Source: Siphlonurus alternatus | Taxonomy: Eukaryota; Arthropoda; Insecta; Ephemeroptera; Siphlonuridae | Direction: 5' to 3' | Length of the DNA: 64,000 bases | Assembly (NCBI GenBank): GCA_949825025.1 | Contig: OX463779.1 | Coordinates: 41,982,249 to 42,046,248 of the forward strand | Shown here: piece by piece, positions 11,801-47,800 of the stretch | Numbering within the stretch: position 1 is the first letter of the stretch | Layout of the letters: each line of letters begins with the position of its first letter | Made by a program: the position numbers and the translations under genes | The notes under the pieces: generated by a model | The model's database searches: none | What the model saw: only the letters and a program-made list of their open reading frames with translations | What the model was told of the DNA's origin: nothing

Positions 11801-14800
11801 GTTTGACACATTATCAAAACCATATGACTTTTTATTTTTTAAATGTCTGATAATTTTTTGCAATTGATTATTTGTTAAAGGTGACAAAAACATTGATTTT
11901 GGATTTACTTTAATAAAACCATAAATATTTGAATTTTGAGTAGCAGAGTCAATTTTGTCTTTACATTCTGATATGCAATTTTCAAAATAATCACTAAAAA
12001 TTTGTGCCATACTTTGAGGATCATTAATACTTTCTTCATTTACAGTTATATTTGAAATTTTACCCTTCCCTATGGTTTTACCATGTTTCCTTCTTATAAT
12101 ATCCCACATTGTTTTTGATTTGTTTTCAGAATTATTTATAAGCCTTGTGTTTTTTTTCTTACTAGCTAGTCTAATTAATTTATTATAAATATACTTATAT
12201 TTTTTTACATATTCATCAGTCCATATAGTTATGATATATAAAAAATATTGTTATGATAATGCTTCACTACCCCAAAGCCTGCTTCAAGAACTTAAAAACT
12301 TCTTCACCAATTCTTGTTACAAAGATCTAAATTACAACATTTCTAAGATCTTGCCAATTTTTTAGAGCCTGATTAGAACTTAAAGATCTATATTGATGAT
12401 TCCAGTGGATCGGACTGGTGGTTCCCTCCATCTCCATCTACGTGGACAGTCTGAGGGAGTGCTACGAGGCCTACGTCATTTACAACTTCATGATTTACCT
12501 GCTCAACTACTTGGAGATTGAAGTGGACGTTGAGTCGAGACTTCAGAACAAGCCTCGGGTCAAGCACATCTTTCCTCTGTGCTTCCTCAGTCCGTGGGAA
12601 ATGGGAGAGTAAGTTAATTCTTCTGCTTATTGTTTGTAAAGTATTGTTGGTAATGTCTGTTGTTGTTGGTGTACAGCTGTTGATTTAGATTGATTAAAGT
12701 ACATATTATCTTATGGAAAATTATAGATAATTATAAAAATGGAATCGATAACTAGCGCCAACAATGTCATTACGTTCTGCGTTCTGGTGGGCAAAATCAG
12801 GTACCACTTATCCTATGATTGACAATGAAAAAGGCTCCATCGGACAGATGTTATAATTTTTACAATTATTGAGAATAGAAGACTTTGATGTAAATAGGCA
12901 TTGGACAGTTGTGCAACGTTGTGCAACATCAGTTTTTTTTTATATATATTTCTTTTTGACCTAATGTCCTTAAAATCTTGCTGCAAAACGATAAGACGTT
13001 ATAGTTACGCAAAGCCCTCTGTAATCGTGTGTATTAAATTTTTGCATGATGTCACAGCATTTTGCAGCACTTGAGGATTGTAGAGGGTTAAAAAATATGA
13101 AAAAAATTATAACAGCTAACTTGAGGTCATGTATCCAAATATGCAGTAAAAAATTCAATTTTTTGTCCAGTGCATTATATTTTAATTCTTTTCTTTCCAG
13201 TGACTTTGTCCAGACCTGCAAGCATGGTATTCTTCAGTACACAGTAGTGAGGCCTTTGACAACTGCAATATCATTGTGAGTACACCTTTTCTTTTATCTC
13301 TAACTATATAGCCAATGCTGCAATGCTTAATAATGGCAAGAAATATGATATATATTGTCCTCAATAGTTTTAATTTTTAATTTGTGCTCATTAACTTTCC
13401 CCGATTCCAAACAAACATTGAAAATTTTAATAACATGAAACAAACATGCGGTAAGAAGTGCTAACCACTAGCATTAAATTTTTTCATTGCAAATTTGCAA
13501 ATAGAACATATATTTATGTTTGTGTTCTCAGATTTGTTTGAACCCTTTAATCGTTCTGCAAAACGATGTAATGTCATAATATATATACTGTATATAAACA
13601 TTTAACATACAAGCATAGAGAATGAAATTGAATCCTGGTGTTAGAGGGTTCAAAAATATATGAAGAAAAAAATGAGAATGCAAACATAAATTGAGGTCTT
13701 GTATCTAAATTTGAAATGAAAATATTTCATGTGTGTTTTACATTTAGAATTTTCAGTCATTGATAAAGAAGTTTACAAAAAAATTAAACAATTTCTTCTA
13801 TTTAGAAATCTCTACATAGAAATAAATAAAAGAACCAGGCTTTTTTCTGTATTAATTTGCTGTGTCTGACTTTTAGATTGTTTTGTGTTGCAGCATCTGT
13901 GAGATGAACGGAGTGTACGGGGAGGGAGAGTTCCGCGGGGACACGGCCTTCCCCTACATGATCGCGGTGAACAACCTGTCACAGTTCGTGGCCATGTACT
14001 GTCTGGTGCTCTTCTACAAGGCCAACCGCGAGGAGCTGGCGCCCATGAAGCCCATTGGCAAGTTCCTCTGCATCAAGGCGGTCGTCTTCTTCTCGTTCTT
14101 GTAAGTCAGCAAGGTTTTCAGTAGTATGTGGGCTTGTTTGTTTGACTGTATTATACTATTTTTACACATAAATTCATTTTTTATAATTTTTACCTGTATT
14201 TTTTTTATTAATTTATTAATTAATTTGTTTCTTTGTTGATTCGTTTATTCATTTATTTATTTAAAATTTCAACCTAATTATAATTAATTTTAAAATTTTA
14301 GATTAAGAAACAAAAAAAATCAATAATGAAGTGTAAATAAATTTTCTCACTGTGTCAATAAGTAGCTTAATAGGGTGTTAAAAAAATAGTGCAGTTGTAT
14401 TTATTTAGCGTATCTCATAATTGGTGTGTGATTGCAGCCAAGGAATGATTATTGCGATCTTGGTATACTCTGGTGTGATCTCGACTGCCTTTGGAATTGA
14501 TGACGTGAAAGGAATTAAAGACATCACTGCTAGAACTCAGGTGAGAAAATATTTAATAAAAGAATAATCAAAATATATTGAAGCAAAATACAAAGTCCAG
14601 ATAATAAACATTGACAATGTAGTGAAGTTGGTGTACAAAACAGAGATCAGTGACTTATGGTCACAAAATTGGTAAATCTTTCAGAGGTTTCCAGAAGTAA
14701 CAATAGGTGCCAATTAGGTGCGGAATCAGTGGCGTGCGGTGGGTTTAGCAGGCAGTAATGCGGCGGCAAAATTATGGGACCGGACACAGCAAAAGGGGGG

Positions 14801-22460: not shown

Positions 22461-25400
22461 ATGGAAGCAGAAGTTACGGCTTTGAACAAGCTTTCGGTAA
22501 AGAGATTTGGAAGAGTATGTGAGGGAGATCAGACGAAGGACGACGCCATGTCGGCTTTTGAGTTCAAACCGCTGCCTATCGGCTGGTTCACCCTGGACGG
22601 GGATGGAAATTACCGTGGGGAATGTGAAGAATTCGTCAAATATTTGTATTTGCCAAGCCTCTCGGTGAATTTCAATTTGAATAAATACCATAAAGATGAC
22701 AAGTACGACTTTGACAACGTGGGTAAGATGTATGAGCACATCGACCCACTTCTGCACTGGGTGAAAGAAAACTCCACTGGATGGTAAGTGTGTGCAACTC
22801 ATATTATATAAACAATAAATAAACAATTATTATTATTATTATTATTATATATTATAATGAAACATATTATATGTGCATTAAATTCGAATTAAAATAACCC
22901 ATTGCATGGCATGCGTGATGAACATTAATTATTTTGCAACATTGCGTATATGCACACGTACCACATACATGTATATATTATATATTAAGTATACAGCTCA
23001 GCACTCGCGCGACCCCCCAAAATTTCAATTTTACAATTTTTATACGATTTTTCAGAATTTTCCTAATTTCATAATTTTATACAGATTCGAATATATTACT
23101 TATTCATGTATGTATCAAGGGTGCAAAATTAAGGGAATTAAATTTTCCGATACTTAAATTCGATCTAGTTTTCAAGTTATTAATTTTTAAAGTTGACTAA
23201 TTTAACATGGAAGTTCCATTTCTCCATGTTAAAGTAGTCAACTTTAAAAATTTATAACTTGAAAACTAGTTCGTTTTTGTATACCTGATATTTTACCTAC
23301 TGATAAGGGATGTAGAGGAGAACATTTTAAATTTTTTTCATAATTTTTATGAATGGGATTTTTTTAGCATTGGGCCAGCTGATCTGTATTATCTCTACCT
23401 TAAACAGAAGCACGAATACCATTAATAGAATGGTTAATTAATTAAGCCTTTTTATATACTTCCCACGTATAAATTTTGACTACTTTGGGCTTGGTTTGCT
23501 AGCCCAAAATAGCATTGCTAGCTCAAAATTACTTTCCTTCAAGTATCAGTTTGGGCTGCGAAGCCCAGAGTACCTGAAACTGGCTTTAAAGTGTTATTGA
23601 GCTATCTGAACTCAAATTTGCTTATAACCAAAGTAGCCCACGATTGTCCAATAATGCTTCAGGCTTTATTTAGACCAAACATGCTCATTTAAGCCTCCAG
23701 CTCAGATTGGAATTTTATAGCTTAAAATAGACCAGATTTGTGACCAAGCAATTTTAACCTAATTAAGACCAAACAAGCTTGAAACAAATTTAAGCTAGCT
23801 GTTGACCGTTTTAGCCCAAAATGGTACCTAATATCCCCAGGGTTGCAGTAAGCTTGTTATTGGCCAAAAAAGCTCAATTAAGCCCAAGCTCAACCTAGCT
23901 TCATGTAGCTGTATATTGACCAATCCAGCTAAAATAAATCTGAGCACCCTGTAGACCATTTCTGCCCAAAATAGCCATGAATGAATTCCTTGCCTCGGCC
24001 AGCACAAAGTGAGCCAAAAATGCTTAAAATGGCACTCTTCAGCCCAAACATGCCCTTTTTTACTCTGAAAGTATTCATGTGCTTGACCAAGCCCAAAATG
24101 GACCAAAAGAGCTTAAAATGGCACTCTTTAGCCCAAACATACCCCTTTTTACTCTGAATGTATTCCTCAGGTTGGCTCAGTTCAAAATAGCCCAAAATAG
24201 CTTAAAATTGATTTTTTTTGCCCAAAGATGTTTTTTCCCTCCCTGAATGTACTGCATTGGTTAGGTAGCCCAAAGTGGACCAAAACAGCTTAAAATGGAC
24301 CTCTTTTGCCCAAAGATGTGCCGGTCCACCCTGAATGTACTGCATTGGTTAAGGTAGCCCAAAGTGGACCAAAACAGCTTAAAATGGACCTCTTTTGCCC
24401 AAAGATGTGCCGATCCACCCTGAATGTACTGCATTGGTTAAGGTAGCTCTACCTTAACCAATGCAGTACATTCAGGGTGGATCGGCACATCTTTGGGCAA
24501 AAGAGGTCTATTTTAAGCTGTTTTGGTCCACTTTGGGCTACCTTAACCAATGCAGTACATTCAGGGTTGATCGGCACATCTTTGGGCAAAAGAGGTCCAT
24601 TTTAAGCTGTTTTGGTCCACTTTGGGCTACCTTAGCCAATGCAGTACATTCAGGGTGGATCGGCACATCTTTGGGCAAAAGAGGTCCATTTTAAGCTGTT
24701 TTGGTCCACTTTGGGCTACCTTTACCAATGCAGTACATTCAAGGTGGATCGGCACATCTTTGGGAGCCCAAAGTGGACCATAACAGCTTCAAATGGACCT
24801 CTTTTGCCCAGAGATGTGCCGATCCGCCCTGAATGTATGCATACTGCATTGGATTAGGTAACTTAAAGTGAACCATTACAGCTTAAAATAGACCTCATCT
24901 ATAAGCTGGGTCTATTATATTTATCAGAATTATTTAAGTCGTTCTGTCATGTTTACAAAGATTTCGCCATTTGTAGACTTTTGGAGATTAATTTAGCGCG
25001 TTTCCGATGGTTTCCGATCGGTTCCGAACTTCCGATTGCTCTGATTGGTTCATTTGAATTCATTTCTCTACCGGTTTTCCATCTGACTTGTAACAGTCGA
25101 CAATCATATTAATGTTGTTGTTGTTGCAGTATGTATCTTTCTTATAGTGTCCTAAGTAGTGTCATGTATCTATATTTTTAAGGTTTTCTTTAGTGTAGTA
25201 ATGCGTAAATCATCTGCTAAGGTAAGCATACATGTATATAGTCTATATACATCAATATCTCAGGGTTAAAGTTGATCGGGAAATGTTTTTCTGTTCATGC
25301 CACCGGGTGGCATATCTATCCTAATAGGTTTAAGCTGCTAACAATGCAGTTCCTCAGCCTATTCTTCCACAATTTTGAAGAAAAAAGCAGTTCTACACAG

Positions 25401-28400
25401 CCAAAATGTAAGGAAATAAATGAACAAAGGTTAATTTTGTTCTAAAATTGCGGTAAGTGGCACTTTTTACAATTTTAATAACAATTTCACAGCTATAATA
25501 AATGAAACTGTATTTCATTCAGGATATTATGCTCTCTAATTACTAATAGAATTGATACAATGACCTCTTACATACGTACTGTATGCATACTGTATTTACC
25601 GTGTGCAAATAATATGCATTCAGTACGTTATTTGTACGTATATATATGATAAAAAAACAGAATAAACAGACACCTCATTTAATATGCATACCATGTGATT
25701 CTTGGGCCAGTCTCTTCCCCTCACAGTCAGCCAAGTATTCCTTTGCATTATTTATAGTGTCTGGTATGCATGCATCAGCATGATGACAATACTGATTTTC
25801 CCCAGCTCTTATAACCATGAATAAATTATTTTATTTTATAGCACTTTTATCAACTTTGAGCTTCAAGTTTTAACTAATTAATAGAATGCATTCATGGTCA
25901 TAAAAGGCACATGTTTTTAGGCAAAATATTTCTATCTTCATCTATTTTCGTTTGTTTTATGAAGCGATAATTAAGGTAAAGAATGCAATACATTCAGAGA
26001 AAAAAAGGCCATTTTGAGCTATTTTAGTCTATTTTTAGCTACTGTTAGTAATGCAGTACATTCAAGTTGAATAAGCACATCTTTGGGCCAAAGAGGTCCA
26101 TTTTAAGCTGTTTTGGTTCACTTTGAGCTACCTAAACCAATGCAGTACATTCAGGGTGGATCGGCACATCTTTGGGCAAAAGAGGTCCATTTTAAGCTGG
26201 TTTGGTCCACTTTGGGCTACCTTTACCAATGCAGTACATTCAGGGTGGATCGGCACATCTTTGGGCAAAAGAGGTCCATTTTAAGCTGTTTTGGTCCACT
26301 TTGGGCTACCTAAACCAATGCAGTATATTCAGGGTGGATCGGCACATCTTTGGGCAAAAGAGGTCCATTTTAAGCTGTTTTGGTCCACTTTGGGCTACCT
26401 TAGCCAATGCAGTATATTCAGGGTGGATCGGCACATCTTTGGGCAAAAGAGGTCCATTTTAAGCTGTTTTGGTCTATTTTGAGCTATATAAGCGTACTGG
26501 GGACAACCAGGGTAGAAAAGGTCAAGTTTGGGCAAATTTGGTCAATTTCCAGCTTGTTTAAGCATGGCATAGTTGGTTCAAATTGATCCATAATGAGCTA
26601 CATAGAGCTATGGATTAAGTGGTGTATTGGTCCAGTTAGGGTTATATTGGGCTATTACAGCTCAATGTTACTTTTTTTGCTAGCCCAGATTTGCCCAAAA
26701 TCGGCCAATTAGGTGCCTGTCGGAGTCTAATTGGGCTAGCAAAATTTTGGTCTTATTTGAGCTGATAAGCCCAAAGTGTAGTCAAAATTTATACGTGGGT
26801 TAATGCTAAATATCTAAAAAACTTCACCGATATTGGTTATATTTTGTCTTGCAAATCAATCAATTTCACCGTTTTATATAAAGCTTATTTAGAGGGATTT
26901 ATTTAATTTTTAATCTGCATGTATTTATTTTTTAAGTTCAATATAATTTGTATCTCGTAGTTACGTAAAAACTCTAACTTAAGGTAGAGCTAGATAACAC
27001 GGATCAGCTGACCCAATGCTAAAAAAAATCCCATTCATGAAAATTATGAAAAAAAAAGGAAAATAAAAAGGTTCTCCACTACATATCCCCTATCATGCAG
27101 TAGCTAAAATATCAGGTATACAAAAACGAGCCAATATTCGAGTTATTAATTTTTAAAGTTGACTGATTTAACATGGAAGTTCCATTTCTCCATGTTAAGT
27201 TATAGTCAATCAATATAACTTTAAAAATTCATAACTCGAAAACTACTGCAGCTCATTTTTGTATACCTGATATTTTAGCTATATGTATATACTGATAGGG
27301 GATGTAGAGGAGAACATTTTAAATCTTTTTCATTAATTTTCATGAATGAGATTTTTATTAACATTGGGCGTGTTATCTCTACCTTAATTGAAGAGCGCGA
27401 TGAGTCTATTTAATTAATTAATTTAATCATGGTTTTAACGTTTTTTAACTACAATAGGAATTTCTATTTGTGCAATATTTTATTGTTTTATTCTTCATTT
27501 TTTTTCTTTTTTTTCTTTTTTGTGAATGAAATTAATAACTTCGATACTTAGAAAATGTCAGTAGGAAAGTCGTTCTGACAGTTTGGTGTTCATTGCATGA
27601 AGTGCGCAAAACTGCATTTTCAATCGCATTCATTAAGATTCTCTGTCTCGAAATTTGTAACTCACATAATATTTTATTGTTTATTTAATATTTTTGAAGG
27701 CAAAGTAAAAATGTTTTGTGAATGGAAGTATACATAATATACACATCAGGCAAGGAAATTGAGATGTTAACATCTCAATTTCCTTGCATCAGGTATAGTT
27801 AGCAAATGTCAGTAGGAATAAGTCACTCTGACAGTCTGACTTCGATTGAAGTGCGCAACGAGTCCTTCTCATTAATTAATAATGATTTTTACTCGGAACT
27901 TAAGTAATATTTTATGCTCATTGAAACAAAAGTTTTTTGTTATTGCTGTTTTTAGCAATTGTGACCATATATAGTCAACTACTGTAGTAGAAGAAAGTCA
28001 CTCTGACAGTTTGAAGCTGATTGAAGAGCACAATTAATGAAGGTTTAATTTTTGAATAATATAATAATAATATAATATATATATATACAGTATATATATA
28101 TAAATATATATATATATAAGTATGTATGTATATGTATATAATATAAAAAGAAAACATCAAAATTTCCGTTTCATTGAAAAGAAAGGAAATTTGTTTGACG
28201 CACCACCAGGCACATCCTACGCACACTGCGTTGATAAAACATTTAAACAAGGACGTGGAGTTGCAACTCAATTTAAAAAAAAACATGGACAAACCCCTTT
28301 TTTAAAGAGTCAACTCAAAAATACTGGTGAAGTAGCTGTTTTATCTTCAGATGACAGTTTTATTTTCTACTTAGTTACTAAATCTGTCCATAACAGCTAT

Positions 28401-31400
28401 CCTGACCACTCAAATATACTACTTGCATTAAAAAATTTAAGAAATATCTGTGAGATTTTAAGTATAAAAAAACTCGCAATTCCTCGTTTAGCATGTGGCA
28501 GAGACGGTTTCAACTGGTCTACTATAAAACAAGACATTATTTCAGTGTTCAAAGATCTTGACATTGAAATTGTTGCTTATTATGGATGGAAGACATTAGC
28601 AAAGAAAGTTGCAAGTAATGATGATGAAACAGCTGTTAAAGAACTCTTTGAGGAATCAGCCCAATCTACTCTAGCAAACGTCATTACCGCTAGGGCCCCT
28701 CCTTCTAATAACCTGGCGGTCCTTGTAAGTTCCGGGCAATGCCAGACCTCTACCTTGCGAGAGAGTACCCGCCCCTCAATTGTCACGCCTGACATAGTGA
28801 GGGTGGAGGGACTGCCAGTGCCAGCCACGAAGGAGCAGATGTCTAATACCCGGGGCGAGAAGTCAGGCCTCGCTCAGGTGAACGACGGTACCACCCCGGG
28901 CGAGGAGTCAGGCCTCGCTTCGGTGAACGACGGTACCACCCCGGGCGAGGAGTCAGGCCTCGCTTCGGTGAACGACGGTACCACCCCGGGCGAGGAGTCA
29001 GGCCTCGTTTCGGTGAACGACGGTACCACCCCGGGCGAGGAGTCAGGCCTCGCTTCGGTGAACGACGGTACCACCCCGGGCGAGGAGTCAGGCCTTGCTC
29101 CGGTGAACGACGGTACCACCCCGGGCGAGGAGTCAGGCCTCGCTTCGGTGAACGACGGTACCACCCCGGGCGAGGAGTCAGGCCTCGTTTCGGTGAACGA
29201 CGGTACCACCCCGGGCGAGGAGTCAGGCCTCGCTCCGGCGAACGACGGTATTGCCCCGAGTGAGGAGTCAAGTCTTGTTTTGGTAAACAATAGTTTGCCT
29301 GAATCAGGACCACCCTTACCAGATCCTGTATGTTCTCTTGAATTGAATCAAGATATTATAGATCTGAACTCATTACATCCAAGACTCAAAGCTTTTTTAC
29401 TAACGATTTTAGATAATAAATTCCAATTTACAAATGATCTATTAAAAAATGATGAAACCGCTGCTAAGAAAAGTGCAATTAATTCAGAAAAATCAATTAA
29501 TGAAATTTCATCTGTTGTCTCACCATCCATTATTAGTAAAAATGATACTATTAATGATAATGTTTTGAGTTCAAATGTTGATAATTTTAATCTGGCATCT
29601 CAATTGAAATCCCCCATTAAAAATTCTCAGGAAGATACACAATCTTCCCCTGTGAGATCACGGCTCCGTGCCAGTACACTAAACAGTATCTCCACCAAAT
29701 TGCCCAACAAAAAAAAAACTTAATGTTCAGGTTCACTCAGCCCCATGTAATATTAAAATTCTTCAGCTTAACTTACCAGGCCTAAAAAATAAATTACCAA
29801 AATTTGAGTATTTTCTTGAAATGGTTGATTGTGATATAATTATATTATGTGAACATGGGCTGAATGAATCTGAAATTATAACAATAAATTTTAAAAATTT
29901 TATGATAGTTTCATATTACTGTAGAGATATTCAAAAATGTGGGGGAGTAGTAATTCTATCTCGTAAAGGTTCAAATATAAATGATATTAAAATAAAATCC
30001 ATTGAATCAGTTTTTGAATGCTGCATAGCGAAATTAGTAATTAACAATACAACAAACATTTATTTTGCTTCTATATATCGCCCACCTAATATATCTAGAG
30101 TGATGAAAAAAATTCAGAATTTTGACAACACAGAAAATAATATAAAACCATTCTTAAAAGAATTTGAAATGTTATGCAAAAAATTAATTAAATACTGTAA
30201 AAATAATGATGATTTTTTTATTATTGCGGGTGACGTTAATCTTAATTTATTTATTGATGATGCAAATGTAATTTTATATAAAGATATACTGGACTCATAC
30301 AAGTTGGAAATTGTTAATAGTTCCGCTACTAGAGAAACAATGAAAACGGCTACTTTAATTGATCATATTATTAAAAGTACATCTGCTATTAATACTAATT
30401 ATAAAACTGAAAAAACAACTCTGTCGGACCATAACTATACTATAGTCACAATAACATTAAATAACTCGAAGAACATTGATAAAATACAAGAAAAACAATT
30501 TTATTATAAACGAATATTTGACAAATGCAATTTAGATAATTTTCTGCTCCTATTAATTCGTGAAGAATGGAATGATTTATTAAATCCTGATCTCAATTCA
30601 AATGAGAGATGGTCAAAATTTCTTGAAATTTTTATTTATCATTTCAACGAGGCTTTTCCTGTTGTTAAAAGAAAAATTTCAAGTAACAAAAATAAACCTT
30701 CCTGGATACTCAATAACCCCCATCTTTACGAACAAGGGATTTCTTTAAAACGCTTACACTATGATGTAAAATTTACTGACCCAAATTTAGAGTCTACTTA
30801 TAAAAAAGAAATGAAATCTTATAAACAAAATATGGCCACCGCTAAATTTAAAGAGAATGACCATGAAATAAAAGGAGCTAATAATAAAATTAAAGCTACG
30901 TGGAATATAATTAATAAAGAATGCAAAACAAAGAAAACAAATGTTAATAATAAGAATAATTATGAATTATGTATAAATAGTGTAACGATTACAGACCCCA
31001 AACTAATTTGCAATTTATTTAATAATTTTTTTGTCAAGACAATTGAAAATATAATAACAGAAAAATTTCCTTTTAATTATTCTAATACTTTAATTATTGT
31101 CGATTCTGATAAAAGTAAAACGAAATTAAATTTTAGTTCGATAGACCCGATTTATATTTTAAATCGAATGAAATCCCTTCCTTATAAGTATGCAGCTGGC
31201 CCAGACGAAATACCATATACTGTTGTAAAATATTGTGCTTCTGTTTTGTCTGTCCCTTTATCTAATTTAATTAACCATTCAATATCAGATGGTATATTTC
31301 CTGATTGTTTAAAGGATTCTAAGATTTATGCAACTCATAAAAAAGGCCCAACTTTCATTATTGATAATTACAGACCAATATCAAATACATCTGTTTTTGG

Positions 31401-32857
31401 CAAATTATTTGAGAATACATTAGACGATCAAATTACGGATTATCAAACAGAAAATCATTTAATTGCTCCCTGTCAACATGGATTCTTGAAAGACCGTTCT
31501 ACTGATACAGCACTATTTGATCTTTTAAGCCACGTTTATATGGCAATAGATAATAAACTATTTTGCGTTGCAATATTTTTTGATTTATCTAAAGCGTTTG
31601 ATAGTCTAAATAAAGATGTATTATTGAATAAATTTGATAACATGGGAATAGGAGTTTCGAGTCGTAATCTATTAGATTCATATCTAACTAACAGACAACA
31701 ATATGTTGAATTAAATTCAAATTCTAACGGCCAAAATATTACATATAAATCAGACAAATTACCGATTACACTTGGAATTCCTCAAGGAGGAAAAATGTCA
31801 GCCACATTGTTTAATACAGGAACAAATGACTTATCAGATCATGTCAAGAATGCGGTATTAGTAAAGTATGCTGATGATATTACAGCTATAATCACAGCAG
31901 AAGCCGAAGATGAATTAATTCGTAAGATTAAACTTACTATTGAAGAGGTACATACATGGTGTACAAATAATAAGCTAATATTAAATTCAACTAAAACCGA
32001 ATACATCCAATTTCATTCCCCTAGACAAATCCCTTTGAATAGTTATTTGTTGCAATTAGCCGGGAAAACAATTAAAAGAGCAGAGTCTGTTAAGTTTCTT
32101 GGTCTACACATTAATGAAAGTTTGGATTGGTCTTTACATGTAAATGCGATTTGTAAGAAGATAAATTCGGCCAATTTTATGTTATATACAATCAGGAATC
32201 ATGTATCTCATGAAACCTTGCTAACCATATATTATGCGTATGTTTATCCACATTTGGCATATGGCATAATAAATTGGGGATGTAAATCGGAACTATTGAA
32301 TCGATGTTTTGTTTTGCAAAAGAGAGCACTTAGAACGATTTTAAGAATACCAAAAGGACAGTCGTGTGTTTCACATTTTAAGGCTAATAAAATGTTAACT
32401 GTCCCTTGCATTTATATTTTAAATTGTGCCTCATTCAAAAAAAATCATCCAAATTTTTATGTTCAGAATGATGGCTATCATGACTATAATACTAGGAATA
32501 AATCGAATGTAGTTACTGAAAGACATAACACACAATTTTTCAAAAACTGTGCAATGTATCAAACAGCAAAATTTTATGAATTTTTACCAGCATGTTTGAA
32601 AGAAATAAAAACCAGTAAACTTTTTCGCACAAAATTAAAGAATGTATTGATCAATAAAGAGTTTTACTCTATTAAAGCTTTTGAGAGTAATAAAATGTCT
32701 GAAAAAGTATTATCAGGATTATAAAATAAACAAAATTATAAATTTACATATACATTGTATTGACTGATATATATATATGTATGTATATGTATATATACAT
32801 ATATGTATGTGTGTGTATATGTGTATGTGTATGTATATATATATATATGTATATATA

Positions 32858-32888
<31 letters not shown>

Positions 32889-35800
32889 ATATATATATGT
32901 ATGTATATATATTATATATATATATGTATATATATATATGTTCCACATAAACTAAAATTTATCAGTATTAATGGTGACTTTGGCTTGTATTTTGTTTTTA
33001 TTATTATTGTCAGTGATTGTGTTTGATAGTGTTAAATAACTTATGTAAATGTGTTTAAGTTTGATGTTTTTATGTTGTATTTTGTCCAATTTTGACTTGA
33101 ACATATGTTTGTCTTGTACAACCAAAAAGAAGTTCCAAAATAAAAATAAATAAATAAATAAATATACAGAGTGAGTCACAATTCGTGTTTCATTTCTATA
33201 TCCTCTAATTTGGAATTGCAAAAGTGCTTGTAGAAACTTCAAATTGCGTACAGTGGTAGCTGAGGGTTGTTTGTTTTATGTTCTGGTGGTGAAAAATTTT
33301 TCCCACCCTTATTTCATCCCTTCTGGGGGGTGGGATCCCGTTCTTTACAAAAACCTTATGGGCTATAATAATACTTACAATGTTAAAGGGTTCCTGAACT
33401 TGAAAATTCATATGCAGATATGGTCCTAGCTCACAAGAGTCCGGATGCAAGTTTTAGTTGCTTAGGTCGCACCGTTGTCTAGATATGAGCGAAAGAATGC
33501 CACGTGGCTAGTAGCGATGACGTCACATCGCTTAAGGTCGAAGCGATCTTTTACATGCAAGCGTACGCGTACGGCCGCGCGGCGGCCGCGACCACGTTTT
33601 CTCGTACTCGTGGTCGCATAGCGCGAGTTAGGAGTGACGTATCAACAAAAATCAAAAAGGACATGAATGACAACATCCTAATGTACATTGAACTCAATTT
33701 TCGAACATTTATGTTGGTAAAAAAAATAGATATCGCAATTCACAAATTAATATTTTTATTTTTTATTCACAATGAAATATACAGAAACAGGAAGTTTTAT
33801 TCTTTGCATGATTTTTTTGTTTTTGCTTCACATATTATAATATTACATACGTAAAGTAAGTGATGTTGTAAATTGTTAATTGCAATAAAATATTACAATC
33901 TCATTATTTAGTAACATTAACAAAAATACTCCAAATATTTATAATAATTATTTGAATTATATTTTCTTCTTCTTTTCTTATATTATAAATAAGCAAAATT
34001 ACATGGTGCGATAGCAATATAATTTTAATATTACTACATAATTATGTTTATACCTTATACAGATATTATATATATAGGTATCGTAAATTAATTCGTATTA
34101 TATCACTGTGAAAAAATCATTTCAAATTCAAACTATTTATATAAGCATGCAGTGCTCAAAATAAGGTGAGTTATACAGAGTGTTCCACAATTCGTGTCCC
34201 AAATGTAACGCGTAAAATGGAATTGCAAAAGTGCTCGTAGAAACTTCAAATTTCGTACAGTGGTAGTCGAGTGTCCTTTGTTTTGTGTTCTGGCAGTGAA
34301 AATTTTTTCCCACCCTTATTTCACCCCTTCTGGTGGGTGCGTTCCCGTTCTTTATCAAAACCTTATGGGCTTACAATGTTAATGAAAATGAAAAATTTTC
34401 GAATTTCAGTCTGAAAATTTCCACCTAGGGGTTTTCGAGAATGAGAAAAACAGTGGTGAAAATATTTTTTTTCTGCCATTGACCCTTCACCCCTCACAGG
34501 GGTCAATGTTGACCCCTAGAATGACTTTTTTTTTAATTCTCCGAATTTGTTGAAATTGATATGATTTTATGGGTTATCGACGATGACAAAACCCATGAAA
34601 ACACTTGCGAGTTGATAAAATTGACCCTTGACCCTCGCAGGGGTCAGTAGTGACCCCTAGAATGACCTTTTTAAAATTCTCCGTTTTCAATGAAATTGAT
34701 ATGCCTCTATGGGTTGTCGAGGATGACAAAACCCATGAAAATACCTGCAAATTGATAAAGTTGACCCTTGACCCTTGCAGAGGTCAGTAGTGACCCCTAG
34801 AATGACCTTTTTAAAGTTTTGCGAATTTGTTGAAATTGATATGCCTCTATGGGTTTCGAGGTTGACAAAACCCATGAAAATACTTACGAATTTATCAAAT
34901 TGACCCTTGACCCTAGCAGGGGTCAGTAGTGACCCCTAGAATGACCTTTTTAAAGTTCTCCGAATTTGTTGAAATTGATATGCCTATATGGGTTTCGAGG
35001 TTGACAAAACCCATGAAAATACTTACGAATTCATAAAATTGACCCTTGACCCTTGCAGGGGTCAGTAGTGACCCCTAGAATGACCTTTTTAAAATTCTCC
35101 GAATTAGTTGAAATTGATATGCCTCTATGGGTTGTCGAGGTTGACAAAACTCATGAAAATATCTGCGAATTGATAAAATTGACCCTTGACCCTACTAGGG
35201 GTCAGTGGTGACCCTTGGAAGGATCTTTTTAAAATTCTCCGACTTTGTTGAAATTGATATGCCTTTATGGGGATTGTAGGAAAACTCGGTGCAGGAAAAC
35301 TCGGTGCAGGAAAACTCGGTGCAGGAAAACTCGGTGCAATTTCAACAAGCTAGGAAAACTCGGTGCACGGTAAACTCGGAGCACGGAAAACTGGGAGCAC
35401 CGCTAGGAAAACTCGGAGCATCGCATATATTATAAAATATCGTATATGTTATATAACCAGCTATATTGTCGCCTCCAAACACAAAAGTTACAGGGAACTT
35501 AATTAAATACTATGAGGAGCATCACTAATATATCGTAATTTATCCTTAATAATTGTTCTCTAGGGCTTATAAATATTTATAAATTGTGTATTTGCCATGA
35601 TAATTTTTTAAGAATTGTAATTATTTGTGTAATTATTTTTTGATGGTAAAAAATTATAAAATTTAGATCAGAACATAGATAACAAAATGACTGTTTACTT
35701 TCTGAAGTAAAGAAAGTAATTATTTAGTCCAGTTTTTGAGATGGTAATTTTTTTAGTTGAAAAAGATGCTGATTTGACTTGATTTGAAAATGGCCGCCAG

Positions 35801-38800: not shown

Positions 38801-41800
38801 ATTTACTCGCAAGTGTTTTCATTAGCTTCCTCATCCTCGATAACCCATAGAGGTATATCAATTTCAACTAATTCGGAAAATTTTAACTAGGGGACACCAC
38901 TGACCCTTACAAGAGGTCAAGGGTCAATTTTATTAATTCGCAAGTATTTTCATGGGTTATTTTGTCATCCTCGACAACCCATAAAGGCATATCAATTTCA
39001 ACAAATTCGGAGAATTTTAAAAAGATCCTTCCAAGGGTCACCACTGACCCCTACTAGGTTCAAGGGTCAATTTTATCAATTCGCAGATATTTTCATGAGT
39101 TTTGTCAACCTCGACAACCCATAGAGGCATATCAATTTCAACTAATTCGGAGAATTTTAAAAAGGTCATTCTAGGGGTCACTACTGACCCCTGCAAGGGT
39201 CATGGGTCAATTTTATGAATTCGTAAGTATTTTCATGGGTTTTGTCAACCTCGAAACCCATAGAGGCATATCAATTTCAACAAATTCGGAGAACTTTAAA
39301 AAGGTCATTCTAGGAGTCACTACTGACCCCTGCTAGGGTCAAGGGTCAATTTGATAAATTCGTAAGTATTTTCATGGGTTTTGTCATCCTCGACAACCCA
39401 TAGAGGCATATCAATTTCAACAAATTCGCAAAACTTTAAAAAGGTCATTCTAGGGGTCACTACCGACCCCTGCAAGGGTCAAGGGTCAATTTTATCAATT
39501 TGCAGGTATTTTCATGGGTTTTGTCATCCTCGACAACCCAAAGAGGCATATCAATTTCATTGAAAACGGAGAATTTTAAAAAGGTCATTCTAGAGGTCAC
39601 TACTGACCCCTGCGAGGGTCAAGGGTCAATTTTATCAACTCGCAAGTGTTTTCATGGGTTTTGTCATCGTCGATAACCCACAAAATCATATCAATTTCAA
39701 CAAATTCGGAGAATTAAAAAAAAAAGTCATTCTGGGGGTCAACATTGACCCCTGTGAGGGGTGAAGGGTCAATGGCAGAAAAAAAATAAGGTCACCACTG
39801 TTTTTCTCATACTCGAAATCCCCTAGTTGGAAATTTTCAGACTGAAATTCGAAAATTTTTCTTTTTCATTTTCATTAACATTGTAAGCCCATAAGGTTTT
39901 GATAAAGAACGGGAACGCACCCCCCAGAAGGGGTGAAATAAGGGTGGGAAAAAATTTTCACTGCCAGAACACAAAACAAAGGACACTCGACTACCACTGT
40001 ACGAAATTTGAAGTTTCTACGAGCACTTTTGCAATTCCATTTTACGAGTTACATTTGGGACACGAATTGGGGAACACTCTGTATATATTATGGTCCATGA
40101 TCGAGGCGCCTCGATCGAAAGCCTGCAGGATGGATCATACGAGTTGCATTTCTTACAATTAAAATACTGTATTAATTTTAATTAACTAATTTTCTTTAGT
40201 CCAAAATTAATTATGCTGCTGCACTATGTAGATTAATTACATTTTCTATATTATATCGAATTATCGAACACTGCGTAGCTTTTTCCTACCAAAGAATTAT
40301 GGCAATTAAATAAATGATTAATTCTGGCTCGTTTCAACATGCCTTAAAAATATAAAACAGGCATCAAGAACAGTGTTGGACAGTGCGGTGACCAGTTTTC
40401 GCCAGATCACTGATGTCCAGCAACGTTGAGCGTGGTTGTTATTTGGATGGGTGACCGTTTTCAGCATCGCTTCACTTTTTCATACTGTATTTTTCTTGGA
40501 TTTAGGCAATTGACAAAATACAGCCCGGGTCCATCTTAACTGAAGTATCCACGTTCCCTTTTTAGTTACAGGGTCCTGTGGATGAGCGTGCTAGGGCAAA
40601 GTGTCAGAAGGATTGTTTTATATATAAAATATGTACAATAATTAGTAAGTACAACAGTAACCTAAGTTGATTGTAATGTTGGTTGATTAAAAAAAATTAC
40701 ATTATTATTATATGTATATGTGTATGTATTAAATATAGTATTTTAATTTATACGTGTTTAATCAAAATTGTAATTGAAAAAATGCATTATTACTTTTTTT
40801 TAAATTTCAATATAATAAAAAATCTGTGAAACGTTGCTGAAAACGGTCACCCATCCAAATAACAACCACGCTCAACGTTGCTGGACATCAGTGATCTGGC
40901 GAAAACTGGTCACCGCACTGTCCAACACTTTCTTGATGCCTGTTTTATATTTTTAAGGCATGTTGAAACGAGTCAGAATTAATCATTTATTTAATTGCCA
41001 TAATTCTTTGGTAGGAAAAAGCTACGCAGTGTTCGATAATTCGATATAATATAGAAAATATAATTAATCTACATAGTGCAGCTGCATAATTGATTTAGGG
41101 CTAAAGAAAATTAGTTAATTAAAATTAATACAGTATTTTAATTGTAAGGAATGCAACTCGTATGATCCATCCTGCAGGCTTTCGATCGAGGCGCCGCGAT
41201 CATGGACCATAATATATATAACTCACCTTACTGCATGCTTATATAAATAGTTTGAAATGATTTTTTCACAGTGATATAATACGAATTTACGAGACCTATA
41301 TATATAATATCTGTATAAGGTATAAACATAATTATGTAGTAATATTAAAATTATATTGTTATCGCACCATGTAATTTTGCTTATTTATAATATAAGAAAA
41401 GAAGAAGAAATATTTCAAATAATTATTATAAATATTTGGAGTATTTTTGTTAATGTTACTAAATAATGAGATTGTAATATTTTATTGCAATTAACAATTT
41501 ACAACATCACTTACTTTACGTATGTAATATTATAATATGTGAAGCAAAAACAAAAAAATCATGCAAAGAATAAAACTTCCTGTTTCTGTATATTTCATTG
41601 TGAATAAAAAATAAAAATATTAATTTGTGAATTGCGATATCTATTTTTTTTACCAACATAAATGTTCAAAAATTGAGTTCAATGTACATTAGGATGTTGT
41701 CATTCATGTCCTTTTTTATTTTTGTTGATACGTCACTCCTAACTCGCGCTATGCGACCACGAGTACGAGAAAACGTGGTCGCGGCCGCCGCGCGGCCGTA

Positions 41801-44800
41801 CGCGTACGCTTGCATGCAAAAGATCGCTTCGACCTTAAGCGATGTGACGTCATCGCTACTAGCCACGTGGCATTCTTTCGCTCATATCTAGACAACGGTG
41901 CGACCTAAGCAACTAAAACTTGCATCCGGACTCTTGTGAGCTAGGACCATATCTGCATATGAATTTTCAAGTTCAGGAACCCTTTTTAATGAAAAAGAGA
42001 TTAAAAAATTTTCGAATTTCAGTCTGAAAATTTCAAACTAGGGGTTTTCGAGTATGAGAAAAACAGTGGTGATATTATTTTTTTACTACCGTTGACCCTT
42101 GACCCTTCGCAGGGTCAGAATTTGTCTCTCACAGACCCTTTTTATTTTCACATTATCTCCATGTTGGAAAGCTTTTAAGCATTTTCAAGCATGGTAAAAC
42201 TAATGGAAGACTAATCAAAGTGTTAAAATTTATCCCTGGACCTTGCAGGGGTCACTGGTGACCCCTGACATGACCCCTGGCATGACCTTTTTCCAAAATT
42301 TTTAATAACGTTGAAATTGATGAGTTTTAAAGGGTTTTCGAGGACGATAAAGCTGATGGAAGTTCTTGCAAAGTGATAAAATTGATCCCTGACCTTGCAG
42401 GGGTCACTGGTGACCCCTGGCATGTCTTTTTTTTTTTTTTCCTAATTTTTAATTACAATGAAATTGATGAGTTTTAAAGGGTTTTCGAGGATGATAAAGC
42501 TGATGGAAGTCCTTGCAAAGTGATAAAATTGATCTCTGACCTTGCAGGGGTCACTGCAATGGTGACCCCTCATGGCATGACCTTTTTTCCAAAATTTTCA
42601 ATTACGATGAAATTGATGAGTTTTAAAGGATTTTCGAGGGCGATAAAACTGATGGAAGTTCTTGCAAAGTGATAAAAGTGATCCCTGGACCTTTCAAGGG
42701 TCACTGGTGACCCCTGGCATGACCTTTTTTCCAAAATTTTCAATTATGTCAAAATTGATGAGTTTTAAAGGGTTTTCGAGGACGATAAAGCTGATGGAAG
42801 TTCTTGCAAAATGATAAAATTGATCCTTGACTTTGCAGGGGTCACTGGTGACCCCTAAAATGATTTTTTTTTTTTCAATTTTTTCAATAACGTTGAAATT
42901 GATTAGTTTTAAAGTGTTGTCGAGGACGATAAAACTGATGGAAGGTCTTGCAAAGTGATACAATTGTTCTCTAACCTTGCAGGGGTCACTGGTGACTCCT
43001 AACATGACCTTTATTCCAACTTTTTTAATTACGTTCAAGTTGATGAGTTTTAAAGGGGTTAAATTTTGAGGACGAGAAAACTGATGGAAGTTCTTGCCAG
43101 TGTGATAAAAGTTTTCCTTGACCTTGCAGGGGTCACTAGTGACCGTTTTATTATCTTACTTTGAATTCTCGGATTGCCTCCGTATTATAACTTTGCAAGT
43201 ATTAAGGGTTTTCGAAGATGATAAAAATATTGGAAGTTTAATGAGTTTAAAGTGCTAAAATGCTAAAGCTATTTTTTATCCTACAGGAGGGGCACTGGTA
43301 ATTTGAACTTTTTTTGAATATTTCTTGAAATTAGGATGGTTTTAAGAGACTGCTAGCAGGATTGAAATTATTAGGAATAATGTAAGCACTTGACAAGTTG
43401 AATTAAAAATTAGAGTGGTGATAATTAAAAATGTTATTTTTTCATTTAGAAAAACCTAAAAAAAATCAGTACAAAGTAACCTACGCTGTGAATAATAAAA
43501 AAAAAAAAAATGCAAGTTGGATATCTCTGTATTGAATTTATTTTGCGGTTATTTTGTTTCAAGAGTAATGGTAGCGTTTTGTTAAAATTTTATTGAAATT
43601 TTAATGTAAAAAATGATTAATTTTCCTGTTTGCTTGCTAATGTGCGTGACGATTTGCACTGCGAACAGAATAACATAAGGCATAATTTGAAAGAAATCAA
43701 CAAAATCAAACCGGCAAGGGGTCACCAATTTCCCTGTGAGATAAGAGAGAGATTTGATCACTTTCTAATTCCCTCTATTATTTTTGTGATCCTCTAAAAC
43801 CATTATTTGCAAATTAATATGGAGATAATCTAAGAATTAAAAAAAATAATGGGAAAAAAAGACCGGTGACTCTTCAATGTCAGCGATAAATTTTATCACT
43901 TTATGAGGACGACTTCCATTATTTTTATGATCCTTGATAAACCTAGTTTATTTGCAAATTAATATGGAGGCATTCCGAGAATTCAAAATAAAATAGGAAA
44001 ATGGTCACTTAATTCTGACCCCTGCTAGCTAGGTCAGTGATCAATTTATCACTTGGCAAGACCTTCCATCAGTTTTATCGTCCTTGAAAACCCTTTAAAA
44101 CTCATCAATTTCATTGTAATTGAAAATTTTGGAAAAAAGAGCATGCCAGAGGGGTCAAGTGACCCTTGAAAGGTCCAGGGATCAATTTTATCACTTTGCA
44201 AGATCTTCCATCAGTTTCATCGTCCTTGAAAACCCTTGAAAACTCATCAATTTCATCGTAATTGAAAATTTTGGAAAAAAGGTCATGCCAGGGGTCACCA
44301 GTGACCCCTGCAAGGTCAGGGATCAATTTTATCACTTTGCAAGTACTTCCATCAGCTTTATCTTCATCGAAAACCCTTTAAAACTCATCAATTTCAACGT
44401 AATTAAAAATTTGATTTTTTTTTTTTTGTGATAAAAATTTGAGGTCGAGCGTGGCGCAGTACATTGACCGGTTCTCGTTAGATCACCGAAGTCAGGCTAC
44501 GTCGAGCGTGGATAGTACTTGGATGGGTGACCGTTTCAAGTAAAAAATACGCTGCTCCCTCCCTGGGGTAAATTCATCTCGCTTTCCACCCAGTGCAGTG
44601 ATGCACTTGTGTGTGGTTCCCCAGGCTTTGGACATCGCTTTGGTCCATTGAGAAAAAGTAGAGGTGTCCGTCCTGACTGAGGTTTTCCACGGTTCCCTCA
44701 GTCTCACCTCAGCGAATGCTGGGACGCGTAAGCATGCAGGCCGTGGCCACTATCCGTTCCCTACCTTATCCCTACCCAGTAACCCGCCGCGAGCTGTAAG

Positions 44801-47800
44801 CTCTTAGAGGTGTATTCTTGTAAAAAAAAAAAAAATTTGGAAAAAGCTAGGTCATGCCAGGGGTCACCAGTGACCCCTGCAATGTCCAGGGACCAAATTT
44901 AACACTTTGATAAGTCTTCCATTAGTTTTACCATGCTGGAAAATGCTTAAAAGCTTTCCAACATGGAGATAATGTGAAAATTAAAAAAAAAGGGTCTGTG
45001 AGAGACAAATTCTGACCCTGCGAAGGGTGAAGGGTCAACGGCAGTAAAAAATTAATGTCACCACTGTTTTTCTCATACTCGAAAACCCCTAGTTTGAAAT
45101 TTTCAGACTGAAATTCGAAAAATTTTTAATCTCTTTTTCATTAACATTGTAAGCCCATAAGGTTTTTGTAAAAAACGGAAACCCACCCCCTATAGAAGGA
45201 ATGAAATAAGGGTGGGAAAAATTTTTCACCACCAGAACATAAAACAAACAACCCTCAGCTATTCGCGAACGCAACCAAATTCAGCCCTCCAGCGGCCAAA
45301 AGTGTGAACTACTAGAATGCGGCTAGCTGTTCATAACAGTATAGGAACAACATACCATTCCTGAGTTAATTTACGTGATTATATAATATTATCCACTTGC
45401 AAATTTTTAATTACCTTAATAAAGTTAAATATTAGTCTTAATAAATAAAATAACAGATAAATGTGACCATACACCGTGTCATTTGCTTTAAATAGAGTCT
45501 TGCGCGCGGCGCGTGGTATATATGCATAATATGTATATGTCGATCCATATGATATTAAATTATTGTTAATTTTTCTTACTGATTGGGATAAAATTATGAA
45601 ATTAATTTTCAAGGTGTAATCGACCCTCCTAAAAACTTGGAAATAATTTTAGATTTTCTCCCCGACGCACCCCTGAGGGTGGAGAACTACCCCGAAAAAC
45701 AATTTTCCTTACAAATTGTGCTAAAATTATGAAATTAATTTTCAAGAGGCAATCGACCCTACTGAACTCAGAAATAATTTTAGATTTTCTCCCCGACGCA
45801 CCCCTGAGGGTGGAGAACTACCCCGAAAAACAATCTTCCTTAAAAATTGTGCTAAAATTATGAAATTAATTTTCAAGGGGCAATCGACCCTACTGAAGTC
45901 GGAAATAATTTTAGATTTTCTTCCCGACGTACATCTGAGGGTGAAAACCTACCCCTAAAATCCATTTTCCTTAAAAATTGTGCTAAAATAAAAAAATTAA
46001 ATTTTCAAGTGTTTAGTAACCCTCTGAAACTCGGAAATAAATTTAGACTTTTTCCCCGACGCAACCCTGAGGGTCAACGGCTACCCACCATATCCTTCTT
46101 TCTTAATAATCGATCGAGTTGAAATTGTGAATTAAATTTTTTTTCGGGATTTATCGAAATTTTTCAGAGAAAAAGTATCCCAGACTCACTTCTTCACTTG
46201 CAGTATGATGATGGTTTCACTCAATGTGTTCAACACCGTTAATTGGCGTGATGGCACATGTTGGTCCGCTCAACAAGGTTATGTGTGTAGGTGCATGGCC
46301 TCTAACATCTGAGTTGTGACCAATTCCATGCAACGTCTTATCTCCACTTTCTGTTCGTCAATTGGTCTCAAATCTCTTCTTGTAAACCTTTTGCTTCAGA
46401 AAGAGATTTGAGACCATTGACGAGCTGAAAGTGATGGACGTTATGTGGAATTGATGGTCACACCTCAGTTGTTAATTAAAGTCACACATAGCCTCATTGT
46501 GCAGACCCCAACATGAGCCTTCACGCCATGTAATTATTATAACGGTGGACATCCATCATCATACTGCAAGTAAAGAGGCGAGTCTGATATATTTTTTTTC
46601 TATGAAAAATTACGATAAATCCCGAAAAAAATTTAAATCACAATTTCAACTCGATTATTAAGAAAGAAGGATATGGTGGGTAGCCGTTTACCCTCAGGGT
46701 TGCGTCGGAGAGAAAATCTAAAATTATTTCCGACTTCAGTAGGGTCGATTACCCCTTGAAAATTAATTTCATAATTCTAGCATATTTTTTAAGGAAAATT
46801 GATTTTCGGGGTAGTTTTCCACCCTCAGGGGTGCGTCGGGAAGAAAATTTAAAATTATTTCCGAGTTCAGGAGGGTCAATTACCTCTTGAAAATTAATTT
46901 CATAATTTTAACACAATTTTTAAGGAAAGTGGATTTTAGGGGTAGGTCTCCACCCTCAAAGGTGCGTCAAGGAGAAAATTTAAAATTGTTTCCGACTTCA
47001 GTAGGGTCGATTACCCCTTGAAAATTAATTTCATAATTTTAGCACAATTTTTAAGGAAATTGGATTTTAGGGGTAGTTTTCCACCCTCAGGGGTGCGTCG
47101 GGGAGAAAATTTAAAATTATTTCCGAGTTCAGGAGGGTCACTTACCCCTTGAAAATTAATTTCATAATTTTAAAACAATTTTTAAGGAAAGTGGATTTTA
47201 AAGGTAGGTCTCCACTCTCAGGGGTGCATCAGGGAGAAAATTTAAAATTATTTCCGAGTTCAGGAGGGTCAATTACCTCTTGAAAATTAATTTCATAATT
47301 CTAGCATATTTTTTAAGGAAAATTGATTTTCGGGGTAGTTTTCCACCCTCAGGGGTGCGTCGGGAAGAAAATTTAAAATTATTTCCGAGTTCAGGAGGGT
47401 CAATTACCTCTTGAAAATTAATTTCATAATTTTAACACAATTTTTAAGGAAAGTGGATTTTAGGGGTAGGTCTCCACCCTCAGGGGTGCGTCAAGGAGAA
47501 AATTTAAAATTGTTTCCTAGTTTAGGAGGGTCGATTACCCCTTGAAAATTAATTTCATAATTTTAGCACAATTTTTAAGGAAAATGGGTTTTAAGGGTAG
47601 TTATCTAACACTCAAGGGTGCGTCGGGGAGAAAATCTAAAATTATTTCTTAGTTCAGGAGGATTGATAACCCCTTGAAAATTAAGTTTTATAATTCTAGC
47701 TCGTTTATAAAAAGAAGTGGAAAATACTAATAGGTCTGAATAACGGGGTACAGCCGGGTAGCACTCCAGGGGTGTGCGTGGTAGAGGTGGTGCCACGGGG

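Follow-up and report, generated by a model that had tools for sequence, protein, structure and literature searches.

A window of 64,000 nucleotides of the mayfly Siphlonurus alternatus (contig OX463779.1, positions 41,982,249 to 42,046,248 of the forward strand) carries a copy of a non-LTR (non-long-terminal-repeat) retrotransposon, or long interspersed nuclear element (LINE), whose first open reading frame (ORF1) encodes a macro domain of the TARG1/OARD1 type, followed on the same strand by an ORF2 for an endonuclease and a reverse transcriptase (RT). For comparison, 20 loci (L031 to L050), picked across the ranks of macro-domain identity, were fetched from the same genome. The parts of the window copy are as follows.

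28083..28090 (+): weak candidate for the 5' target-site duplication, ATATACAG, separated from the element by 47 bp of AT repeat
28138..33168 (+): 5'-truncated copy of a young macro-domain LINE family, delimited by its match to the full-length copy L031
28138..29723 (+): ORF1 remnant, the C-terminal two thirds; the frame is open from 28104 and its first codons come from a flanking AT tract
28164..28592 (+): TARG1/OARD1-type macro domain, ORF1 residues 15-157 (PDB phmmer search, structural model, Foldseek)
28380..28382 (+): codon of Lys87, by alignment the equivalent of the catalytic Lys84 of TARG1
28503..28505 (+): codon of Asp128, by alignment the equivalent of Asp125 of TARG1
28848..29270 (+): in-frame tandem repeat of 45 bp, 9.4 copies, encoding a 15-amino-acid unit in the C-terminal part of ORF1
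29683..29723 (+): overlap of the ORF1 end with the ORF2 open frame, ORF2 lying in the +1 frame with respect to ORF1; the junction is the same in L031 and L032
29683..32724 (+): ORF2 open frame, 1013 codons, first listed ATG at 29821
29728..30480 (+): endonuclease domain of the apurinic/apyrimidinic endonuclease (APE) type (Pfam Exo_endo_phos_2 below its cut-off; motif residues)
31336..32112 (+): RT domain with DLSKAFD and YADD (RVT_1, E 1.8e-30)
32725..33139 (+): 3' untranslated region (UTR) with an AT-rich microsatellite (32767-32939)
33140..33161 (+): (AAAT)n 3' tail
33162..33169 (+): weak candidate for the 3' target-site duplication, ATATACAG

The identity of the domain is carried by sequence and by fold. 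In a phmmer search of the PDB with the 533-residue product of the frame at 28122-29723 (+), upstream of ORF2, human OARD1/TARG1 (4j5r) was the best match (E 1.6e-26, ORF1 residues 12-153) and DarG (5m31) the next-best solved family (E 9.3e-6). An AlphaFold2 model of the macro domain, built on a 50-row alignment, had a mean predicted local distance difference test score (pLDDT) of 89.1; its best Foldseek match was TARG1 (4j5q; E 2e-16, template modelling score (TM) 0.89, root mean square deviation 1.0 Å), and DarG came second among the fold matches (TM 0.79-0.81). A preliminary description of the window had reported a non-LTR element whose ORF1 has a macro domain of the TARG1 type that retains both catalytic residues, and this held in every test, including the profile search and structure prediction that it had proposed, in which TARG1/OARD1 is closest on both counts. 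Pfam Macro scored 21.8 bits on the window ORF1, just below its cut-off of 22; it exceeded the cut-off in L036 and L047, fell below it in L031, L045, L048, L050 and the separately assembled protein P0001 (see below), and was not found in the L046 ORF1 at E up to 0.1. The NCBIfam DarG profile matched in part (38.7 bits, far under its cut-off of 250 bits), and PHROGs phrog_335, named a phosphatase, matched the macro region (E 2.8e-16). The macro domains of 21 elements (19 fetched loci, the window copy and P0001; the window copy, L031 and L032 belong to one family) all retain Lys87, Asp128, His35 and Trp132, though identity falls to about 40% and only 20 of the 153 alignment positions are invariant. 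Asp125, the TARG1 counterpart of Asp128, has a catalytic role. No relative was found in the viral contigs or prokaryote genome contigs searched, and a protein search with the macro region of P0001 returned P0001 alone.

The domain recurs with its element throughout the genome (G000, 455.7 Mb), which was searched with the macro domain (150 scored of 315 candidates) and with the RT (131 of 3832). At least 66 full-domain macro matches, the window's own included, are 99-100% identical to the query; the other scored matches are five partial or broken pieces of the young family and 79 matches at 37-76%. All 131 scored RT matches stand at 99-100%. ORF2 is open over 1000 codons or more in 84 of these copies, and a macro domain lies upstream in 52 of the 84 and in two of the 47 copies with a shorter ORF2, with identical spacing in 50 of the 54 macro-RT pairs. 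The number of near-identical full-domain matches, the linkage in the long-ORF2 copies and the common spacing together exclude chance. Six of the 32 long-ORF2 copies that have no macro domain were sampled, and all carry the 3' part of the young family's ORF1 at 99.3-100% identity; four end inside ORF1 3' of the macro domain, one abuts N and one reaches the edge of the piece, so that they look like products of ordinary 5' truncation. The young family has been active very recently: 29 copies match L001 at 99.80-99.97% identity along 2102-2944 bp, 21 of them matching from one same base on, and 5' ends vary between copies.

The same layout, for which the preliminary description had proposed a search, extends well beyond this family. 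In 19 of the 20 fetched loci an ORF2 match lies 3' of the macro domain on the same strand, with an ORF2 identity to that of the window of 99.8-99.9% in two loci, 44-71% in 15 and 31% in two (L048 and L050). ORF2 is open over more than 900 amino acids in 15 of the 19, the others being L033, L045 (frameshift), L048 (matched from residue 358) and L050. The remaining locus, L049, one of the 79 more distant macro matches, is a 167-codon open frame of OARD1-like sequence (GCGLD) with no ORF2 match, and looks like the host OARD1 gene. The macro-ORF1 architecture therefore recurs in many LINE families of one genome, in families whose macro domains are 40-100% identical to that of the window copy, which rules out a host gene lying by chance beside one copy.

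The window copy is less complete than the words 'apparently intact' in the preliminary description implied: its ORF2, with endonuclease and RT, is indeed open, but about 959 bp of its 5' end are missing. It matches L031 at 99.72% identity over 5034 bp starting at L031:2487, and the 5' end of L031 and L032, shared by both, lies 959 bp beyond that point, so the copy is without the 5' UTR and roughly 260 ORF1 residues. The ORF1 of L031 is an open frame of 789 codons, or 778 amino acids counted from the first methionine. The first codons of the frame that begins at 28122 (MYVYVY) derive from an (AT)n tract; because this ATG lies in the flanking tract and L031 extends further 5', 28122 is not the native start. 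A target-site duplication is represented in the window copy by just the 8-bp candidate in AT-rich sequence, and none was clear by eye at L031 or L032; the three copies read to their 3' end all have the (AAAT)n tail.

The RT, AP-like endonuclease, dispersed copies, 5' truncation and simple-repeat tail make this an APE-type LINE. A Pfam scan of the whole window ORF2 returned no endonuclease family; its first 251 residues alone matched Exo_endo_phos_2 (E 7.6e-5, 23.0 bits) below the cut-off of 27.4, which the relatives L047 and L046 passed (31.1 bits) and missed (26.4 bits), respectively. No match to the endonuclease region was found in the PDB with phmmer up to E 10. All 16 ORF2s longer than 900 amino acids (from the window copy and 15 of the loci) conserve the residues N, E, D..N, D-H and D-H of the endonuclease motifs and keep both RT catalytic aspartates, the tyrosine of YADD being Y in 12 and F in four. 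The ORF2 frame is open back past the ORF1 stop by about 40-110 nucleotides in 17 of the 19 loci (not in L045 or L048), at an offset to ORF1 of +1 in 13 loci and +2 in L043, L044, L046 and L047. There is no AUG upstream of the endonuclease in the ORF2 frame of the window copy or L031, from which we infer that ORF2 is expressed by frameshifting or reinitiation.

Around the macro domain, ORF1 has further parts, and here the preliminary description, which had equated ORF1 with the domain, was right as to the domain's presence and too narrow as to the rest: in full copies ORF1 is longer, with a basic, low-complexity N-terminus rich in Q, P and R before the TARG1-type domain and a long, low-complexity, repeat-bearing tail after it. 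The N-terminus is likely to bind nucleic acid; its net charge is +2 to +17 in 19 ORF1s, and the N-termini have motifs in common, such as N[SR]F..L, which directly precedes the macro domain in many. No CX2CX4HX4C zinc knuckle occurs in the N and C parts of the 19 ORF1s. In nine element ORF1s (those of the window, P0001 and seven loci) Pfam gave only weak, unrelated matches besides Macro and found no RRM, CCHC, CTD, PHD or esterase domain, although a diverged RRM or coiled coil could escape it. The architecture is also seen in P0001, a separately assembled protein of 710 amino acids on a 3902-bp contig, which has the same ORF1 layout as the window family, aligns with 99% of the window ORF1 (48% identity) and reaches some 253 residues beyond it at the N-terminus; its macro part is 78% identical to that of the window (112/143), its other parts 10-70%. 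As a separate observation, the 15-amino-acid repeat is GC-rich within an otherwise AT-rich element, with a third-position GC content of 0.76 against 0.19-0.24 in the other parts of ORF1 and ORF2 measured, and related repeats occur in the ORF1s of L036, L041 and L042.

Substitution rates, estimated by the Nei-Gojobori method for nine pairs, indicate that the macro domain is maintained. The ratio of non-synonymous to synonymous distances (dN/dS) in the macro domain is 0.04-0.13 in seven of the eight measurable pairs, two of the seven being rough estimates because dS exceeds 2; in the RT, among the pairs measurable there, it is 0.07-0.08 in three pairs, 0.23 in L043/L044 and 0.36 in L033/L034 (64 codons only), and in the N and C flanks of ORF1 it is 0.33-0.77. 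The macro domain is thus under purifying selection close to that on the RT.

Trees of the macro domain and of the RT disagree. Approximately unbiased (AU) tests, in which three RT clades were placed on the macro tree and four macro clades on the RT tree, rejected all seven cross-tree clades (p 0.004 to 2e-101), the clades having been chosen after the trees were seen. The conflict is visible in pairs of elements: L043 and L044 are 81% identical in the ORF1 N-terminal part and 89% in the macro domain against 43% in the endonuclease and 57% in the RT; L040 is 83% identical to L038 in the macro domain and 57% in the RT, with values of 58% and 77% to L031; and between L046 and L050 the identity is 78% in the macro domain and 35% in the RT. 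These comparisons indicate that the macro ORF1 has been exchanged between RT lineages of LINEs, as though acquiring this ORF1 module brought an advantage. Reticulate evolution of ORF1 has already been reported in elements of the Jockey superfamily (PMC4120745). In L034 and L035 the synonymous distance is 0.13-0.27 in ORF1 and 1.27 in the RT, which points to a recent ORF1 exchange.

As to the origin of the domain, the macro tree sets the elements and L049 apart from eight other OARD1s with strong support (100/99), L049 having a long branch that drew a program warning and being the one arthropod OARD1 included; within this group 20 element domains fall on one side and the host gene on the other with weak support (80/19). 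This topology fits capture from the OARD1 of the host lineage, once or a few times. TARG1 itself is reported to be sporadic in invertebrates (PMC4245714).

It is practically certain that we are dealing with a group of APE-type LINEs with a macro-domain ORF1. As judged from its sequence, the domain is probably an active ADP-ribosyl-hydrolase with the lysine-dependent mechanism of TARG1 and DarG. Human TARG1 removes ADP-ribose from glutamate and aspartate of proteins and from thymidine-linked DNA (PMC8501950); it also cleaves ADP-ribose from phosphate ends of RNA and DNA, RNA being the better substrate (PMC11833690). The catalytic lysine is common to TARG1 and DarG, and TARG1 K84A gives no rescue from DarT toxicity (PMC8501950). 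Our working hypothesis, and the explanation that we consider likely overall, is that the LINE ribonucleoprotein (RNP) carries an ADP-ribose eraser that reverses ADP-ribosylation by the host. The hydrolase would travel within the ORF1 RNP; host transferases would attach ADP-ribose to the RNP itself, to silencing factors, or to ends or bases of the nucleic acid where the target has been nicked; and the ORF1 eraser would take it off again, so that target-primed reverse transcription could proceed or silencing be escaped. Such modification has a precedent in L1, which is silenced by SIRT6 through mono-ADP-ribosylation of KAP1, as reviewed in PMC4695847. Purifying selection together with the invariant catalytic residues makes reversal of host ADP-ribosylation more likely, and we lean, if not strongly, towards a net benefit of this reversal to the element. 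The host genome has 22 matches to the poly(ADP-ribose) polymerase (PARP) domain above the cut-off, a count in which several exons of a single gene may each figure; six of the matches (five +, one -) lie within 50.2 kb (C8:24922550-24972709), and the PARP repertoire of the host may be enlarged. More tentatively, the whole could be seen as a radiation of LINEs in which a captured eraser, moved between lineages by ORF1 swapping and held under RT-like selection, serves as a dedicated factor of counter-defence or integration in an arms race with enlarged host PARPs.

Other explanations were weighed against this one. Macro domains generally bind ADP-ribose, and this one has a fold predicted at high confidence; it might act as a reader that binds ADP-ribose or poly(ADP-ribose) and, needing no catalysis, brings the LINE particle to stress sites, chromatin sites, or nicks or breaks that are PARylated. 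We think this unlikely, as the catalytic lysine is kept in 21 of 21 element domains while the otherwise conserved serine beside the HC motif varies, and a change of that lysine in TARG1 and DarG abolishes rescue from ADP-ribosylation of DNA (PMC8501950). A narrower role would be confined to nucleic-acid ends, where the enzyme would clear ADP-ribose off element RNA, or off the 5' phosphates at the target nick, as an aid to repair and not as counter-defence. ORF1 proteins generally bind RNA, and the basic N-terminus agrees with such a role, as does the preference of human TARG1 for phosphate-end ADP-ribose on RNA over DNA; against it, the TARG1-like SCO6735 is inactive on 5'-phosphate substrates in one passage of PMC11833690 (in another it is active on RNA phosphate ends), and we regard a role of this kind as possible but rather doubtful.

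That the domain is a transduced host OARD1 exon riding along without function finds a foothold in the grouping of L049 with the element domains against the other OARD1s, but sits badly with a macro dN/dS near that of the RT and far under that of the ORF1 flanks, with catalytic residues invariant down to about 40% identity, and with the spread of the domain over many families and its swapping between RT lineages; it is very improbable, and for the pairs measured the selection data reject a neutral passenger. A host gene or exon that stands beside one LINE copy by chance is refuted by the counts of copies (52 of 84, with the spacing shared by 50 of 54 pairs) and of loci (19 of 20 with ORF2 downstream), and we give it practically no weight.

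Several observations weigh against the eraser hypothesis or narrow its reach. The equivalent of OARD1 Ser35, beside the HC motif, is D in 11, G in six and A in four of the 21 element domains; serine occupies this position in 119 of 120 OARD1 relatives (one is gapped), these being the 120 listed of 1258 matches and mostly vertebrate, although the residue is not known to define the family and the host candidate L049 has A there. The equivalent of Leu124 is R or K, mostly R, with leucine kept in two of the 21, and L043 and L044 carry K for Gly126, before the catalytic Asp loop residue. With these changes relative to the OARD1 relatives and the missing Gly126, substrate range or activity may differ from that of TARG1. 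One pair, L034/L035, has a macro dN/dS of 0.35. For the most distant RT lineages, the evidence that they share the macro domain comes from L048, with its ORF2 matched from residue 358, and from the broken L050, and within the RT lineage of L050 a macro domain lies upstream in one of 84 scored RT matches, L050 itself (84 scored of 7710 RT candidates, compared with 170 listed macro places at 0.5-7 kb upstream, a check that could miss more diverged macro domains). Finally, a model of full-length P0001, based on two sequences, had a mean pLDDT of 35.5, too low to be of use, and so says nothing about the other parts of ORF1, RNA binding included.

The closest known protein remains TARG1/OARD1/C6orf130, which has the same macro fold, motif order and catalytic Lys and Asp and is the best match in sequence and structure; unlike it, the element domain sits in a LINE ORF1 between long low-complexity segments and is changed at the equivalents of Ser35 and Leu124. 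It differs from the macro domain of the DarG antitoxin in belonging to a eukaryotic mobile element, with no partner transferase seen. The ORF1 types I-V of Khazina and Weichenrieder have been surveyed in 448 Jockey-superfamily elements, with RRM, CCHC, coiled coil/CTD, PHD or, in type IV, esterase domains (PMC4120745). The macro ORF1 shares with these types its place upstream of endonuclease and RT, its modularity, its exchange between lineages and, through the esterase, an enzymatic precedent; unlike types I-IV, the element ORF1s are without their domains by Pfam and carry a macro domain. Those R1-clade LINEs of insects whose ORF2 includes a viral helicase domain (PMC4686597) offer a precedent for the uptake of a foreign enzyme, but that enzyme is a helicase, of viral origin and in ORF2. 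In the main text of PMC4120745 no word beginning with macro occurs, and no LINE with a macro ORF1 was found among the matches listed from an open-access library. We therefore describe this as a new, enzymatic type of LINE ORF1.

The roles of LINE ORF1 beyond RNA binding are poorly understood, while ADP-ribosylation is known in DNA-damage repair and in L1 silencing. A conserved eraser in ORF1 would count as evidence from nature that retrotransposition is limited by ADP-ribosylation in the host, a limit testable through a single change of the catalytic lysine, and it would add cellular retrotransposons to the carriers of macro domains, beside viruses. The exchanges described above also mean that ORF1 modules move between LINE lineages inside one genome. 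TARG1-like folds were matched in BFVD in Kadipiro virus VP8, thrips-associated virga-like viruses and invertebrate iridescent viruses, which are viruses and not LINEs; the top match of the macro model had a TM of 0.89 at 34% identity. With such folds in VP8 of Kadipiro virus and in several of the thrips-associated virga-like viruses, insect viruses too may have acquired this domain.

Elsewhere in the window, a 5'-truncated LINE piece at 10295-12187 (-) encodes an RT that shares 57% identity with the L050 RT and 33% with the macro-LINE ORF2, with no ORF1 readable alongside, and degenerate RT fragments at 52100-53777 (+) are 38-42% identical to the macro-LINE ORF2. Four pairs of tandem arrays are also present, at 24090-24447 and 24449-24764 (unit 89 bp), 34478-35271 and 38887-39773 (unit 140 bp), 42288-43144 and 44031-44412 (units 142-147 bp), and 45568-46074 and 46690-47700 (unit 131 bp). 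By eye, the consensus unit of each array resembles the reverse complement of that of its partner, an arrangement found in large foldback-type elements.

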